Part shown: positions 17,053-24,185 of the stretch, piece after piece
Layout: every line of letters starts with the position of its first letter
Position numbering within the stretch: the stretch's first letter is position 1
NCBI GenBank assembly: GCA_016870245.1
Contig: VGCA01000006.1
Span: 1-40,222 of the forward strand
Origin: Actinomycetota bacterium
GTDB taxonomy: Bacteria; Actinomycetota; Acidimicrobiia; IMCC26256; PALSA-555
Direction of reading: 5' to 3'
DNA length: 40,222 nt
Position numbers and translations under genes: made by a program
The notes under the pieces: model-generated
What the model saw: the letters and a program-made list of their open reading frames with translations, nothing else
What the model was told of the DNA's origin: nothing
Databases searched by the model: none

Positions 17053-18237
17053 TCAGCCGAGGCGGAGCGTCTCGAGCGGTTCCATGCGGGCGGCCTTCAC
17101 CGACGGATAGAGCCCCGCCACGGCGGCGACCCCGACCGCGAGGCCGATCCAGATCGGCATCTTGGCGTAGTCGATGACCACGGTCCATCCGGCGATGGCG
17201 GACACCAGGTAGACCACGCCGACGCCGAGGAGCGCGCCCACCAGTCCACCGAGCAGCCCGACGAACAGCGCCTCGAGCAGGAACTGGAGGGCGATGAGCG
17301 ACCGGGTGCTGCCGAGGGCCCGCCGGATGCCGATCTCCGACGACCGCTGGATCACCGAGATCGACATCACGTTGGCGATGCCGAGCCCGCCGACCGCGAG
17401 CGCGAGCAAACCCGCGAACAGCGCGGTCTGCTGGAGGGTCTTGTCGGCCCGGGCCGAGGCCTCGAGCGCGTCGCTGGGGATCTTGGTGGTGACCGCCTGC
17501 TCGCTGCCGAGGTTGACCGCGGTCGGGAGGGCGTCGCTCGTCTCCTCCGTCGACCCCGGTCGGGCGCGGACGTACATCTTGGTGGGTGCGCCGTCGGTGT
17601 CGAAGTCGTGCTTCGCCGCCCACTGGGTGATGAACGCAGCGTTGTCGAGGCTCGGCTCGAGCGGCACCCGGTCGAGCACACCCACGACGCCGTAGTCGAT
17701 GCCGTTGAGCTGCACGGTGCGGATCTCGCCCGGCAAGACGCCGTACTCGTCGGCGAGCCCGCCACCGAGCACGACCGCCCGGGTCTTGTTGGCCTGGTCG
17801 CCCTGCGCGAGCCAGCGGCCGCTGCGCAATGGCACCTCGAGCACATCGGGCAGCTTGTCGTCGGACGCGAGCACCGGCACGGGGAACGTCTGGTAGTAGG
17901 CCGCGCCGCCCTCGTTCGGCAGCGTGACGACCCCCTGCACCTCGGCCACCGCGCTGGCCCGGTCGACGGTCTCGATCGCCTTCGCCCGGCGCACCGCGCT
18001 CTTGGGGAGGGTCGGGTTCTGCTGGCCGAACGACGATCCCGCCTCTGCGGTGATGAGGTTGGTCCCGAGCTCGGCGAGACGCGCCTTCAGGTCCCCCTTG
18101 GCCGACTCGGTGAGACCGACCGCGCCGACCATCGCGGCGACGCCCACGACCGGCCCGAGCATGATCAGCAACGTGCGGACCTTGCGGGCGAGGATGCCCG
18201 AGACCGCGATCGAGAGGAGGTCGCGGAACCGGCTCAC
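17053..18237 (-). CDS. MacB/FtsX-like ABC transporter permease
   Basis: 394 residues, GTG 18237, overlapping the ATPase stop by four bases. First membrane helix about 22-44, then a long extracellular core domain (about 50-265), then three helices near 273-296, 314-348 and 361-378. The C-terminus PSVKAARMEPLETLRLG is the typical end of MacB-type permeases, and EIGIRRALGSTR (about 302-313) is the conserved cytoplasmic coupling segment. MacB-type permeases do not carry substrates through the membrane in an alternating-access way; they transmit force across it to a partner (mechanotransmission). The partner here would be the giant adaptor two genes upstream. It is the last gene of the minus-strand operon 22137-17053. 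Confidence 0.93.
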   Translation of the reverse strand: MSRFRDLLSIAVSGILARKVRTLLIMLGPVVGVAAMVGAVGLTESAKGDLKARLAELGTNLITAEAGSSFGQQNPTLPKSAVRRAKAIETVDRASAVAEVQGVVTLPNEGGAAYYQTFPVPVLASDDKLPDVLEVPLRSGRWLAQGDQANKTRAVVLGGGLADEYGVLPGEIRTVQLNGIDYGVVGVLDRVPLEPSLDNAAFITQWAAKHDFDTDGAPTKMYVRARPGSTEETSDALPTAVNLGSEQAVTTKIPSDALEASARADKTLQQTALFAGLLALAVGGLGIANVMSISVIQRSSEIGIRRALGSTRSLIALQFLLEALFVGLLGGLVGALLGVGVVYLVSAIAGWTVVIDYAKMPIWIGLAVGVAAVAGLYPSVKAARMEPLETLRLG

Positions 18238-18959
18238 GTGGTCCCGCTGAACGGCTGGGGCTCCTGGTGGAGGTCCGACACGATCTCGCCGTCGCGCATC
18301 GACACCACCCGGTTGGTGGTGGCCGCGATGCGCGGGTCGTGGGTGACGAGGACGACGGCGCGCGCCGCGGTCCCGAGCCCGGCGAAGATCTCCATCACCA
18401 TCTCGGCGTTGCGGGTGTCGAGTGCGCCGGTGGGCTCGTCGGCGAGGACCAGCAACGGCTGGGTGACGATCGCCCGGGCGATGGCGACCCGCTGTTGCTC
18501 CCCACCCGACATCTGCACCGGACGGTGATCGGCCCGGGCCCCGAGGCCCACCTCCTCGAGCGCGGCCATCGCCCGCTCCCGCCGCTCCGACCTCGTCAGC
18601 CCGCGGTACAGCAGCGCGGTGTCGACGTTGCCGAACGCCGTGAGGTGCGGGATCAGGTGGAACTGCTGGAAGACGAAGCCGATCGTGTCCCCCCGCAGGC
18701 GCGACCGCGCGTCGTCGTCGAGCGCACCGGTGTCGGTGCCGGCCACCCTCACGGTGCCGTCGGTCGGCTTGTCGAGCACGCCGAGCAGCCCGAGCATCGT
18801 CGACTTGCCGGACCCCGACGGCCCGATGATCGCCATGTGGTCGCCGGCCTCGATCCGCAGCGACACGTCACGCATCGCGTAGACCTTCACCTGGTCTCCG
18901 TAGACGCGCGACACGTGGTCGAGCTCGAGCAGCGGCGGCGCCGCCGCAGCCGTCGTCAC
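18234..18959 (-). CDS. MacB/LolD-type ABC transporter ATPase
   Basis: 241 residues, GTG 18959, three bases after the adaptor stop. Complete nucleotide-binding domain: Walker A GPSGSGKST (46-54), Q-loop FVFQQF (95-100), signature SGGEQQR (151-157), Walker B LLVLADEPT (169-177) and H-loop His207. The sequence ADEPTGALDT is the usual hallmark of the MacB/LolD/FtsE group. It would dimerise beneath the permease encoded next. Nothing is unusual, and function within the export system is clear even though the exported compound is not. Confidence 0.96.
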   Translation of the reverse strand: MTTAAAAPPLLELDHVSRVYGDQVKVYAMRDVSLRIEAGDHMAIIGPSGSGKSTMLGLLGVLDKPTDGTVRVAGTDTGALDDDARSRLRGDTIGFVFQQFHLIPHLTAFGNVDTALLYRGLTRSERRERAMAALEEVGLGARADHRPVQMSGGEQQRVAIARAIVTQPLLVLADEPTGALDTRNAEMVMEIFAGLGTAARAVVLVTHDPRIAATTNRVVSMRDGEIVSDLHQEPQPFSGTT

Positions 18960-18962
18960 CGG

Positions 18963-21407
18963 TCAGCTCTTCTCTTCCAGCTCGATGACGACCACGTCGT
19001 TGACGGCGATCCCCTTCTTGACCTCGATGTACGACCCCTCGGTCAGGCCGGTCTCCACCTCGACCTCGCGCGTCTTGCCCGTCTCCAGGTCGATGAGCCG
19101 GATGACGTCGACACCGGAGCCGTTCTGCTTCACCGCGGCGATCGGCACGGTGAGCACACCCTTGCGCTCCTGCACCACGACGTTGACGGTGACCGGCGTG
19201 CCGTCGGCGGCACCGAGGTCTCCCTGGACCTGGACCTTGCCCTTGAACGTCTGCTGGCGGGTCTCGGGATCGGTGGTCGGGAAGTCGTCGAGCTCGGTGA
19301 TGACCCCGGGCGCACTGGACGCGCCGCCCTGGACCTGCACCGTGGCCGTCTGACCGACCTTGAGCTTGGTGCGGTCGGCCGCACTCGCGTTGAGCGTGAC
19401 GGCGATGTTGGGCTCGGTGATCGTGAAGAGCGGCGTGCCGGCGGGCACGACGTCACCCTCCTTCACGAGCAGCTGACCGAGGCGACCGCCGCCGGTCGTC
19501 ACGATGATGTCGGTGGGCAGGAAGTACACGTTGGTGTTGAGCGTGAGGATCGGGATCGACACCTGCGTCGACCCGGCGGGCAAGATCACGCTCCCGGTGA
19601 CCGGCTGGATGTCCTTGCCCTGCTGGGCGGTGCCGGTGACCGTGTACTGGATCGAGATGTCCTTGTACGACGGCTGGTCGGCGACCACGGTGAAGGCCAC
19701 GCCCCCACCCAACGACACGTTGGCGCCGCCCCCGTAGATGCTGATCTTCGGCTTCGTCTGGTTGACGATCACCGTCGACGCCGCGCTCGGGTTGCCGACC
19801 ACGTAGGTGGACTGCGGCGCGATCGCCACGACGAGGGTGGTGTCGGGCTGCACCAGGCCGTTGTTGAGCGTCGGCATCGCGACCGTGAGGGAGGTCTGGT
19901 TGGCCGGCACCGTCACGATTCCGGGCGGCGGGTTGTAGTCGCTGCCCATGACGGCGTCGCCGCCGTAGGCCAGCGTGAGCTCCAGCGGCTGGGTCAGCGG
20001 CCGATCCAGGCTGATGCCGAACTGCGCGGGCGTGCCGGCGTTCACCCGCAGGTTGCTCGCGCCGATCGTGACGACGGGCACGACCGAGCCCGCGCTCCCC
20101 TGGATGGTGACGGTGGCCGACCCCGGGCCGCCCGGCGTGTAGCCGGAACCCTGGGCCACGCCAACGATCAGGAAGCGGTCGGGCTTGATGGTGCTCGACG
20201 TCTTCGCCTGGACCGTCACCGTTGCCGAGGTCTGCCCCGCGGGGATCACCACGTTGGGCGGGAACGCCACGTAGTCGACGTCGGCCTGCGCGCTGCCGCC
20301 GACGCTCAGGTTCACGAGCAGGTCGTCGGTCGGCGCGCTGCTCGCGGCGATCGTGACCACGGTCGACTGGCCCGGCTGGATGGTGGTCGTGCCCGACACG
20401 GTGATCGTGGGCGTGACCGACGACTGGACCGTGATCGACGCGACCGACGGGGTGCCGACCGTGTACAGGTTTCCGGGGTCGGCCTGGACCGTCCCGGTGA
20501 GGGTCTGGGCCGGCGCCGAGGCGTTGGGCAGGATGAACACCTGGAGCGTCGCCGTGGTGCCGCCCGTCGGGATCGTGACCGTCTGCGTCGCCGCCGCCGG
20601 GATGCGGTCGCCGCTCGCGAGCGTCCCGCCGAGTGCGACCGTGACCGTGAGGTCGGCCAGCACCGGGATGTCGGAGACGAGGTTGAAGCTGACGAACGCA
20701 CCGCGCGCGGTTGACGTGGTCGACGCCCCGATGGAGATCTCCGGCAGTGCCTGGGCGCCGACGCCGGTGCGGGCCGCGGCCTTGCGGGCCGGGGGTGGGC
20801 CGATCGTCAGCCCGGCCGATGTCTGCGGGCCGAGCTCGTAGCCCGCCCCCTGCTGGAGCGCGACGTTCACCGTCTGGCTCGTCGAGGGCGTCGACCCCGG
20901 GTAGCCACGGGCGGCCTGCCACTGGCTCAGCGCGAACCGAGTCTGCTCGGTGTAGCGGGTGTCCGCCGGACCGGGCTGGAAGCCGTCGGCCGCGAGGATC
21001 GTCTTCAGCTGCTGCACGTCGAGGCCCTCGGCGCCGACGTCGAGCTTGCGGAAGAACGGGAAGAGGCCCGGGAACGCGACGGAGGCGCGACCGTCGACCG
21101 CGAGGATGCGGTCACCCGGGTTCAGCGGCGCGCCGTCGTCGAGGTACTCGGCGCTGACCACCGACGCCGACGCCGAGGTCGCGGACTGACCGCCGCCCCC
21201 ACCGCCGAGCCAGCTCACGGTGCGCTGCTCGGCGCGCTCGAGCGTGCCGGGGACGGTGACCTCGTCGGTGAGGTCGCGGACCACCGCCACGTCGGTGATG
21301 AGCACCGGCTTGGCGCCGGAGTCGCTGCCGCTCTGGGCCGACGCGACCACGATGCCGCCGACGACGACGAGCGCCACGACGACGCCGATGATGATCCACT
21401 TGCGCAC
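18963..21407 (-). CDS. Giant efflux adaptor with peptidoglycan-binding domain and four Calx-beta-like repeats
   Basis: 814 residues, GTG 21407. Order: N-terminal membrane anchor (4-23); first half of the barrel-sandwich/lipoyl region (about 36-110, with NPGDRILAVDGR); a peptidoglycan-binding type-1 domain (about 122-170, GAEGLDVQQLKTILAADGF then TRFALSQWQ); four repeats of roughly 105 residues (about 222-328, 332-436, 443-548, 552-637), each with the Calx-beta pattern P-x-I-T-I/G...DY...IPAG-T...V...Y; second lipoyl half (638-666, QLLVKEGDVVPAGTPLF); beta-barrel (667-748); membrane-proximal domain (750-811). The first and last parts match the known actinobacterial adaptor family that pairs with MacB-like transporters. 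The 415-residue Calx-beta block between the two lipoyl halves is extra. It probably forms a rigid spacer through the cell wall (inference). Its partners are encoded immediately downstream. Confidence 0.88.
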   Translation of the reverse strand: MRKWIIIGVVVALVVVGGIVVASAQSGSDSGAKPVLITDVAVVRDLTDEVTVPGTLERAEQRTVSWLGGGGGGQSATSASASVVSAEYLDDGAPLNPGDRILAVDGRASVAFPGLFPFFRKLDVGAEGLDVQQLKTILAADGFQPGPADTRYTEQTRFALSQWQAARGYPGSTPSTSQTVNVALQQGAGYELGPQTSAGLTIGPPPARKAAARTGVGAQALPEISIGASTTSTARGAFVSFNLVSDIPVLADLTVTVALGGTLASGDRIPAAATQTVTIPTGGTTATLQVFILPNASAPAQTLTGTVQADPGNLYTVGTPSVASITVQSSVTPTITVSGTTTIQPGQSTVVTIAASSAPTDDLLVNLSVGGSAQADVDYVAFPPNVVIPAGQTSATVTVQAKTSSTIKPDRFLIVGVAQGSGYTPGGPGSATVTIQGSAGSVVPVVTIGASNLRVNAGTPAQFGISLDRPLTQPLELTLAYGGDAVMGSDYNPPPGIVTVPANQTSLTVAMPTLNNGLVQPDTTLVVAIAPQSTYVVGNPSAASTVIVNQTKPKISIYGGGANVSLGGGVAFTVVADQPSYKDISIQYTVTGTAQQGKDIQPVTGSVILPAGSTQVSIPILTLNTNVYFLPTDIIVTTGGGRLGQLLVKEGDVVPAGTPLFTITEPNIAVTLNASAADRTKLKVGQTATVQVQGGASSAPGVITELDDFPTTDPETRQQTFKGKVQVQGDLGAADGTPVTVNVVVQERKGVLTVPIAAVKQNGSGVDVIRLIDLETGKTREVEVETGLTEGSYIEVKKGIAVNDVVVIELEEKS

Positions 21408-21426: not shown

Positions 21427-22137
21427 CTAGCGGCCCGATCCGTTCTGCAACTGGCGTCGCGACCGCTCGGCGCACTCCCGCGTGTCGTCGCTCGACAGGA
21501 TGTCCTTGCCGGGCGGCGCCTGGATCTGGCTGCTGGTGCTCGCGCCGAACGAGAACAGTCGCCCCTTCTCGTCGGGTACCGGCTCGGCGATCTTCCAGCC
21601 CCGACCGATCATGCACTTGCGCCACTTCAGGTACGCCTTGTTGCGTTCCTGGATCTCCTCGGGGGTGAGGTTGTCGTTGGCGCTCTGCGCCGCCTGCAGC
21701 GCCTGCACGACGTTCGACCGGGCGGCGCACGTCCCGAGCGCGCTCACGTAGTCGCGGTCGTTCGTCGGCGAGTCGGGGTTCGCGGAGTCGGGAGCACCGA
21801 TGAACTTCACGCCGAGACCGTCGAGGCAGCCCCGGAACTTCGCCACCGCGTCGAAGAGCGCCGTCGTGGGGTCCTCGTCCTCGTCGAGCGGGATCGTCGT
21901 CGTGACGCTCGCGCGGCCGCCGGATGCGGAGCCCCCCGTGCCCGCACCCGCGGGCTTCACGACCTTGCCGTCGACCACCTCGTAGCCGGCGGGCAGCTTG
22001 ATGTCGACCTGCCCGGCAGGGAGCACGGTGGGGTCCTGGTCGCCCCCGCCCCCGCAACCGGCGAGCACCGCGAGGCAGCACAGGGCGACGCAGCCCAGCC
22101 CCATCCACCGACCGGCACCCGATCGCCGCACGCGCAC
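21427..22137 (-). CDS. Lipoprotein with four conserved-looking cysteines, first gene of the export operon
   Basis: 236 residues, GTG 22137 (a second GTG two codons later is possible). Signal sequence with Arg-rich start, hydrophobic core and lipobox LAGC, lipidated Cys28. After a Gly/Asp/Pro-rich linker (28-90) the mature part has four cysteines, 104, 137, 175 and 222, which could form two disulfides outside the cell. Segments FRGCLDGLGVKF and KWRKCMIGRGW (172-182) are the most structured-looking and read like two copies of a Cys-x-x-x-G(L/R)G pattern. I do not recognise the family. Because it is encoded 19 bases before the adaptor and in the same operon, it is probably an extracytoplasmic accessory or substrate-handling factor of the transporter (inference). 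Confidence 0.85.
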   Translation of the reverse strand: MRVRRSGAGRWMGLGCVALCCLAVLAGCGGGGDQDPTVLPAGQVDIKLPAGYEVVDGKVVKPAGAGTGGSASGGRASVTTTIPLDEDEDPTTALFDAVAKFRGCLDGLGVKFIGAPDSANPDSPTNDRDYVSALGTCAARSNVVQALQAAQSANDNLTPEEIQERNKAYLKWRKCMIGRGWKIAEPVPDEKGRLFSFGASTSSQIQAPPGKDILSSDDTRECAERSRRQLQNGSGR

Positions 22138-22242: not shown

Positions 22243-23160
22243 TCAGGACTGCCGATCCGCGGCGGGGCGGTCCGCCGGTTCCACGTCGACCCGGTCGGCC
22301 ACCTCGGCCATGAACCGCTCGATCGCCTCGGGCGCGTCGCGGCTCGTGACCCAGGGCATCACCACCACCCGCTCCACACCGAGCTCGGCCATCCGGGCGA
22401 CGTCGGCCGCGGCGGGCGCGGGGTGCAACACGGTGATCCCGAAGGCTCGCGCCGGGTCGAAGGCCTCGTCGCCGTCGGCGAGCAGGGTGACCCGCACGGC
22501 CGCCAGCCGGTCGACGAGGCGGGCGACCCCGGCGACGTCACCCGCCACCCCGCCCGACATCCAGCCGTCACCGAAGCGCAGGGCGCGGCGCAGCGCGCCG
22601 TCGGAGTCACCACCGAACAGGATCGGCGGGTGCGGCTGCGAGGCCGGTGAGGGCACGAGGTGCACGGGTGGGACGTCGAAGTGCCGGCCGTGGAACCCGG
22701 CGCCGGGCTCCGTCCAGAGGCTCCGGAGGGCGACGGCCGCCTCCTCGGTGCGCGAGAAGCGGGTGCGCGGGTCGACACCGAGTGCCGCGAACTCCTCGGT
22801 GAGCCACCCCACCCCCACCCCGAGGACGAGTCGGGGACCCACCAGCGCCTCGAGGGTGACCGCGTGGCGTGCGGTCAGGATCGGGTGGCGCAACCCCAGC
22901 AGGTAGACGGCCGTCCCGAGCCGGATGCGGGTGGTCGCGACGCCGATGGTCGCGAGCACGGTCCACGGGTCGAACAGCGGCACGGCGGCGCCGTAGGGGA
23001 ACGCGCCGTCGTCGGTCCCGGGGTACTCGGAGGAGAACTCGACCGGGATCACCACGTGGTCGGGCACGAACACCGACTCGTAGCCGAGCTCCTCGGCCCG
23101 CGCCGCGAGGGCCGGCATGCGGTCGGGCCGGACCCCGACGAGGTTCAGGCCCAGCCGCAC
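22243..23160 (-). CDS. LLM-class (F420-type) oxidoreductase
   Basis: 305 residues, GTG 23160. Starts MRLGLNLVGV, has VFVPDHVVIP (30-39), RIRLGTAVYLLGLRHP and VLGVGVGWLTEEFAALGVD, which are characteristic of the luciferase-like enzymes often described as probable F420-dependent oxidoreductases (TIGR03619-like). Whether it uses F420 or FMN cannot be decided from the sequence. It lies four bases after the stop of another LLM gene and is translated from the same message; the two may form a heteromer or handle successive steps. The hinge region to the export operon (22138-22242) has the promoter of that operon. Substrate unknown. Confidence 0.88.
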   Translation of the reverse strand: MRLGLNLVGVRPDRMPALAARAEELGYESVFVPDHVVIPVEFSSEYPGTDDGAFPYGAAVPLFDPWTVLATIGVATTRIRLGTAVYLLGLRHPILTARHAVTLEALVGPRLVLGVGVGWLTEEFAALGVDPRTRFSRTEEAAVALRSLWTEPGAGFHGRHFDVPPVHLVPSPASQPHPPILFGGDSDGALRRALRFGDGWMSGGVAGDVAGVARLVDRLAAVRVTLLADGDEAFDPARAFGITVLHPAPAAADVARMAELGVERVVVMPWVTSRDAPEAIERFMAEVADRVDVEPADRPAADRQS

Positions 23161-23163
23161 GCG

Positions 23164-24036
23164 TCAGACGCCCTGCAGCGGCCTCAGCACCTCGCGACCG
23201 AAGCCGTCGATCGACTCGGGGGACGCGAAGTCGCAGAACCAGACGTACACGCGCTCCACCCCCTGCTCGGCGAGCCCGCCGAAGTAGTCGACGATCTCCG
23301 GGCCCGTCCCGATGACCGGCGCCGAGGAGCCGAACCGGCGCTGGGCGGTCTCCGTGATCGCCGCGCGCGACGCCTCGTCGGGGACGTAGGCGACCATCTT
23401 CTGCACCGACACGCGGGCGTCGCCCACCTGGTCGCGCAGCTCGGGGACCCGGTGCATCTCGCCTACGTGCACGTTCCACCAGTCGGCGTGCTCGCGCACG
23501 AGCGCGAGCGTCTTCTTCCCCACGCCCCCGATCACGATCGGGATGTGCCCGAGCGGGACGGGCTGCTGGCGCGCGCCCGTCATGTGGTGGAACTCGCCGT
23601 CGTAGTCGAGGGTCTCCCCGGCCCAGAAGGCCTTGAGGACGTCGAGGGTCTCCCGCAGCCGCTCCACCCGATCCCGCGGCGCCGTCGAGCCCACCCCGTA
23701 GACCGAGAACTCGGTGGGCACCGATCCCCACCCGATCCCGAGCTCGAAGCGCCCACCGGACGCGTGGTCGATCGACACCGCTTCGCGGGCGAGCGTCGCC
23801 GGGTGCCGGAACGCGTCGCACAGCACGAGCGACCCCACCATGAGCGTGGAGGTGTGCGCGGCGATCCACGTGTTGGTGACCATCGCCTCGTACATCGGCT
23901 GGTCCTCGGCCATCGGCGGGGCGAGGTGGTCCATCCCGGTCATGCCCACGAACCCGGCGGCCTCGGCTGCCTGCGCCCGCTCGACGATCTGGTCGAACGA
24001 CAGCCGCATCTGGGGCAGGAACAGGTTGAACTCCAT
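23164..24036 (-). CDS. LLM-class flavin-dependent oxidoreductase
   Basis: 290 residues, ATG 24036 preceded by GAAGGG (ribosome-binding site, about six bases away). Typical features: MEFNLFLPQMRLSFDQIVERAQAAE start, MTGMDHLAPP (32-41), SGGRFELGIGWG and IPIVIGGVGKKTL. This is the mycobacterial-style LLM group that acts on unknown lipophilic substrates with F420 or FMN. It is transcribed first, followed after three bases by the second LLM gene, so the two should be expressed together. It is divergent from the small membrane protein gene at 24198. Confidence 0.88.
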   Translation of the reverse strand: MEFNLFLPQMRLSFDQIVERAQAAEAAGFVGMTGMDHLAPPMAEDQPMYEAMVTNTWIAAHTSTLMVGSLVLCDAFRHPATLAREAVSIDHASGGRFELGIGWGSVPTEFSVYGVGSTAPRDRVERLRETLDVLKAFWAGETLDYDGEFHHMTGARQQPVPLGHIPIVIGGVGKKTLALVREHADWWNVHVGEMHRVPELRDQVGDARVSVQKMVAYVPDEASRAAITETAQRRFGSSAPVIGTGPEIVDYFGGLAEQGVERVYVWFCDFASPESIDGFGREVLRPLQGV

Positions 24037-24185
24037 CGGGGACCCTTCTCGGTTCGCAGCCGTCGCCGGTCGGCCCCCGTTGCTAGTCGCAGGGAGATGC
24101 ACGCGCCACTCGGACCCCGGGCGGCTTCGCCCGCCGACCCCCCGCGCCGGCCGCCGCGGCTGCGCAGCACCCCCACGCCTCGGCT

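Follow-up and report, generated by a model that had tools for sequence, protein, structure and literature searches.

The minus strand of the window, by which we mean the whole 40,222-nucleotide stretch of DNA analysed here, carries a four-gene operon that includes an adaptor of the MacAB type. The adaptor gene (18963-21407, minus strand) encodes 814 residues from a GTG start that is kept in close relatives (MRKW/VRKW); the single 814-residue frame described in an earlier note on this DNA is thus confirmed by a frame open for 814 codons, and it lies on the minus strand, the plus-strand reading not being the gene. Downstream are the genes for an ABC ATPase of the MacB/LolD type (18234-18959, minus strand, 241 residues) and for a MacB-type permease with MacB_PCD and FtsX domains (17053-18237, minus strand, 394 residues), and the order adaptor, ATPase, permease was retained in 28 of 28 relatives. 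The presence of MacB_PCD and FtsX domains with a cognate ATPase places these components in the MacB family (E 4e-22, 7.8e-19). On the other side, a gene for a lipoprotein with the lipobox LAGC and four conserved cysteines (21427-22137, minus strand) ends with its stop codon 19 bp short of the adaptor gene. Upstream of the operon lie two neighbouring genes for luciferase-like monooxygenases, at 22243-23160 and 23164-24102 (minus strand; Pfam E about 1e-43).

Within the adaptor, the sequence indicates an N-terminal transmembrane anchor (residues 1-24; 21336-21407, minus strand, as are all features of the protein), followed by the first half of a lipoyl region (approximately residues 34-108; 21084-21308), where positions 49-93 of the family profile match a biotinyl carrier domain (E 5e-4). 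A PG_binding_1 domain occupies residues 128-170 (20898-21026), with a Pfam score of 24.5 bits against a curated cut-off of 23 (E 3e-5). After a short stretch resembling strands F and G of a Calx-beta domain (approximately residues 177-203, QTVNVALQQGAGYELGPQTSAGLTI; 20799-20879) and an Ala/Pro-rich linker defined by its sequence and by comparison of linkers (residues 204-221; 20745-20798), three complete Calx-beta repeats were delineated by a repeat HMM, by Pfam or by both, at residues 222-331 (20415-20744), 332-441 (20085-20414) and 443-552 (19752-20081). The array ends in an incomplete repeat comprising strands A-E only (residues 553-626; 19530-19751), and the remainder of the protein (residues 627-814; 18966-19529) supplies the second lipoyl half, a beta-barrel and a membrane-proximal domain.

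Several lines of evidence support these assignments. Pfam places HlyD_3 at residues 641-731 (E 1.5e-11) and Calx-beta in three stretches of the protein (E 4.8e-9), both, like PG_binding_1, above the curated cut-offs, and all three domains were matched by each of the eleven members of the first family alignment. When the profile of these eleven proteins was compared with the PDB, it retrieved MacA (6.8e-9), the Calx-beta domains of NCX1 (1.4e-8), the peptidoglycan-binding domain of SleB (5.5e-5) and the biotinyl domain, in the right order along the chain. Among solved structures, MacA (3fpp, 5nik) is the closest to the C-terminal part, over residues 625-808; the adaptor's score against the NCBI RND_mfp model is below its trusted cut-off (55.3 versus 94.9 bits). 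Repeat 2 modelled alone in AlphaFold2 folds as a Calx-beta domain with a pLDDT of 91.7, its best matches in the PDB being CBD1 of NCX1/CALX and the Calx-beta domain of integrin beta4 (TM 0.63-0.77), and a full-length model built from only two sequences, otherwise too poor to use (pLDDT 41), renders repeat 1 as a beta-sandwich. Because the Pfam matches, the PDB profile matches and the single-repeat model agree, the domain order read in the earlier note (anchor, half lipoyl region, peptidoglycan-binding domain, Calx-beta array, second lipoyl half and beta-barrel) is correct, as is its identification of a MacAB-type adaptor with the array lodged between the peptidoglycan-binding domain and the second lipoyl half. 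The helical hairpin that separates the lipoyl halves in MacA is absent, its place being taken by the peptidoglycan-binding domain and the Calx-beta array.

A key feature of this array is the way in which its two ends match the repeat profile. We built the profile from hand-cut complete repeats, leaving out the N-terminal segment, and ran it on 28 relatives. In all 28, the stretch directly after the peptidoglycan-binding domain corresponds to HMM positions 75-106 (strands F and G), while the last repeat corresponds to positions 1 to 73-83 of 107 (strands A-E). The claim of four Calx-beta repeats is therefore only partly upheld: three are complete, and the fourth is split, with A-E at residues 553-626 and F-G at approximately 177-203. 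The short F-G segment scores 6.2-15.9 bits among the relatives; a score of 6 bits at these positions was reached by one of 5600 shuffles and by none of 2175 other ORFs, and a profile-profile comparison of the segment with the repeat profile (hhalign) gave an E-value of 6e-10. Residues Y190, G193 and I202 of the F-G motif are invariant. From the complementary matches at the start and the end of the array, it follows that the insert comprises an integral number of Calx-beta periods with its boundaries in the E-F loop, which spans residues 71-79 of the single-repeat model and contains the position of the cut.

These patterns suggest that the two ends of the insert can pair into one Calx-beta domain, residues 177-203 completing residues 553-626, so that the array appears to be a loop closing through a single split domain. 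The acidic E-F/F motif points in the same direction: the N-terminal F strand and the last repeat either both have it or both lack it in 28 of 29 proteins (a count that ignores kinship and in which few lineages discriminate), the sole mismatch being L106, whose sequence was read by hand, whereas agreement with the internal repeats holds in 25 of 29. In two relatives, L107 and L108, the acids are kept in both complete repeats and lost in both halves of the split domain. The last strand E is nevertheless followed by a PTDIIV segment that is a candidate F strand of its own, and a MAFFT alignment of the repeats sets the stretch past strand E against the beginning of strand F. The last repeat might thus be closed by the PTDxIV strand, leaving the F-G-like segment as a relic of the origin of the array or as an element packing on the peptidoglycan-binding domain. 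We consider this unlikely, although it deserves serious attention, since a relic would have to accommodate a complementary cut with no overlap in 28 of 28 relatives, the conservation of the tyrosine and glycine of the F-G motif, and the agreement between the acidic motifs of the two halves once L106 had been corrected by hand.

Acidic residues also bear on a possible role of calcium. In a crude motif test, the acids that serve as Ca2+ ligands were largely missing from the repeats of the window adaptor, from those of its genus and from L041, L043 and L106, and acidic residues make up 4-6% of the array in these proteins compared with 9-24% in most others. With the ligands lost in the window and kept in most relatives, any Ca2+ role would belong to those relatives rather than to the window adaptor.

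The topology of the insert also bears on its shape. The earlier note had envisaged an extended rod or duct carrying the adaptor through the thick cell wall, a proposal for which four Calx-beta units in a row, and the elongated form of Calx-beta arrays elsewhere, can be cited. However, both ends of the array join the lipoyl/peptidoglycan-binding base, and they are tied to this same base even if the halves do not pair; moreover, each end supplies the half of a domain that is missing from the other. If the halves pair, strand G finishes at the adaptor base and strand A of that domain starts at the far end of the array, so that repeats 1 to 3 have to bridge back through the linker. Laid out straight, three to four Calx-beta domains would measure approximately 13-17 nm, at 4.3 nm for each domain by our own estimate. 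The linker from strand G to repeat 1 is 18 residues long in the window adaptor and 17-41 residues in two- and three-repeat relatives that lack an additional insert, lengths that reach at most about 6-15 nm. Many linkers could not span three to four domains set in a straight line, so that, if the halves pair, the chain of repeats has to double back into a loop. Relatives with four repeats have linkers of 71 and 92 residues, although these represent too few lineages to correlate linker length with repeat number. A wall-spanning rod was accordingly rejected on topology and linker length, and we regard it as distinctly improbable; a collar or cap at the site of the MacA hairpin fits better.

The family is restricted to a single bacterial class. 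All 28 full-length relatives with the same domain order belong to one class of Actinomycetota, presumably the Acidimicrobiia; the one named record is an Actinomycetota bacterium (VGBI01000037.1). Of 58 genomes from the same order, 13 encode the whole architecture, as do about 33 of a sample of 395 taken from the class (34 were listed, of which G323 has the repeats only), and an even draw of 396 genomes across the phylum yielded four matches, all inside the class. One Acidimicrobiales record, L006, has no family adaptor. No relatives were detected among the viral contigs scanned, and no plasmid record covered 80% of the adaptor protein; plasmids of Agrobacterium and Rhizobium (NZ_CP049209.1, NZ_CP072143.1) contain stretches resembling Calx-beta arrays, at 28-29% identity and with no listed gene. 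We found no account of this exact domain order, nor any description of a Calx-beta-bearing adaptor, in the open-access journal literature searched, in keeping with the earlier view that the arrangement was undescribed. That note did not mention that one domain is split, that the Ca2+ sites are degenerate, that a lipoprotein gene accompanies the adaptor or that the family is confined to one class.

Considerable diversity exists among the relatives, which possess two, three or four complete repeats and in some cases an additional coiled-coil hairpin or a second peptidoglycan-binding domain. In a tree of the adaptor core, the window adaptor falls in a clade whose members have three or four complete repeats; set apart from it is a two-repeat group that also holds one long-branched three-repeat row. 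In L111-L114, the F-G loop of repeat 1 is interrupted by 234-338 extra residues whose sequence looks like an antiparallel coiled-coil hairpin, the only coiled coil among family adaptors. Between strand G and repeat 1, the adaptors of L105 and L109 (1136-1137 codons) accommodate a second stretch resembling a peptidoglycan-binding domain, together with three beta domains of a different type. Furthermore, a lipobox (LLAGCGG) replaces the N-terminal transmembrane helix in L046-L048, showing that the mode of membrane attachment has changed within the family. In one locus, L045 (G057:C12), the adaptor is distributed over two frames of 299 and 737 codons, reflecting either an assembly error or a pseudogene.

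Canonical actinobacterial adaptors with a peptidoglycan-binding domain (L050-L054) provide a comparison. As in the window, their peptidoglycan-binding domain lies between the lipoyl halves, and an ATPase and a permease adjoin four of the five (L051-L054). At the position of the Calx-beta array, L052 and L053 have nothing, whereas L050, L051 and L054 have a long coiled coil; unlike in the window family, no strand F-G segment was seen after the peptidoglycan-binding domain. The three adaptors with a coiled coil at this position come from genomes of the same order. Across these proteins, this one position accepts extracytoplasmic extensions of several kinds.

The fourth gene follows the adaptor closely in its occurrence. 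The DNA is GC-rich, and clustering of neighbouring ORFs in all frames was crowded with antisense shadow ORFs; the lipoprotein was the only neighbour to survive a profile check. In each of the family loci examined, a match to its profile lies upstream of the adaptor, and among the 58 genomes of the order the lipoprotein occurs in just the 13 with the adaptor, the remaining 45 lacking both. Pfam and the PDB return nothing for it, and no NCBIfam model matches above its cut-off. L111-L114 carry two tandem copies, and a weak relative (E 3e-10) adjoins the canonical adaptor L052, suggesting that this type of lipoprotein may extend beyond the family. Such all-or-none co-occurrence, together with an ATPase that scores high with LolD, invites comparison with LolCDE: the neighbouring lipoprotein would be the cargo of a dedicated release system, handed to the wall by the adaptor. 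We find this improbable, as both the ATPase and the permease score higher with MacB and such an adaptor is not known from Lol systems; in addition, a part as clamp or sensor, like that of YknW in YknWXYZ, would suit the lipoprotein just as well.

A search for relatives of OEP/TolC returned no matches in the genome and was positive in 7 of 14 control genomes, in keeping with a single membrane. The want of an outer channel, the peptidoglycan-binding domain and the MacB_PCD/FtsX permease would also suit an arrangement like FtsEX, with the permease transmitting force to the wall via the adaptor, for example onto a peptidoglycan enzyme, and no export taking place. There is little to recommend this alternative, however, given that the adaptor core is most like MacA, which is part of an exporter, and that no hydrolase gene is conserved in the loci.

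We instead favour, with reasonable though far from complete confidence, a MacAB-like export or mechanotransmission system of monoderm bacteria whose adaptor is tethered to peptidoglycan and bears a closed Calx-beta loop at the hairpin site. This is a new form of a known machine, and not a new machine. With MacA of MacAB-TolC, the window adaptor shares the anchor, the split lipoyl region, the beta-barrel and the membrane-proximal domain, and a MacB-type permease is likewise present in the operon; it differs in having a peptidoglycan-binding domain and a Calx-beta loop where MacA has its helical hairpin, in having ATPase and permease as separate genes, and in the absence of TolC from the genome. 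Separate genes for adaptor, ATPase and permease are also found in two monoderm systems, Spr0693-0694-0695 of S. pneumoniae and YknWXYZ of Bacillus (PMC5768738, PMC5985334). Spr0693 has an ordinary helical hairpin, with no PG_binding_1 or Calx-beta domain reported, and YknWXYZ is also a four-gene system, although YknW is a membrane protein rather than a four-cysteine lipoprotein. The hexamers formed by Gram-positive relatives of MacA (Spr0693, YknX) stand about 154 A tall, a height that fits the inner wall zone (PMC5768738), YknX has been reported to bind peptidoglycan (as cited in PMC5985334), and the role of such adaptors in bacteria without an outer membrane is considered an open question (PMC5985334). 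The window repeats share their fold and sequence profile with the Calx-beta domains of NCX1/CALX and integrin beta4, but largely lack the Ca2+-ligand acids and have one domain split across the chain.

From its family, we infer that the window system would operate through four co-inherited parts: the four-cysteine lipoprotein, a hexamer-forming adaptor, the ATPase and a MacB-type permease (type VII ABC). The membrane-anchored adaptor would use its membrane-proximal, beta-barrel and lipoyl domains to cap the permease, while its peptidoglycan-binding domain would touch the wall. At the site of the MacA hairpin, the Calx-beta excursion would leave and return at one place, the F-G strands at its start and the A-E strands at its end pairing as one 'velcro' Calx-beta domain on the base, with two to four complete domains forming the loop. 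Such a loop could plausibly take over the job of the hairpin by making the hexamer larger and stiffer at its extracellular end, within the inner wall zone, and Ca2+ may set its stiffness in relatives that keep the ligands. More tentatively, and with odds that we place well below even, the adaptor hexamer might carry six Calx-beta loops, each sealed by a split domain, as a beta-walled collar replacing the alpha-helical barrel of known MacA-type adaptors, its loop size tuned by repeat number and its stiffness by Ca2+, with the four-cysteine lipoprotein as an obligatory fourth subunit.

Together, these analyses define a class-restricted form of MacAB-like pump with a companion lipoprotein, and a probable structural trick that is read from the protein sequences. 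Between them, the family and its canonical counterparts offer a natural series at one site, extending from no insert to a coiled coil or to two, three or four Calx-beta domains, with and without Ca2+ ligands, and accompanied by a strictly co-inherited lipoprotein. If real, the split Calx-beta domain would be a neat answer to the accommodation of a long repeat array inside a compact fold.
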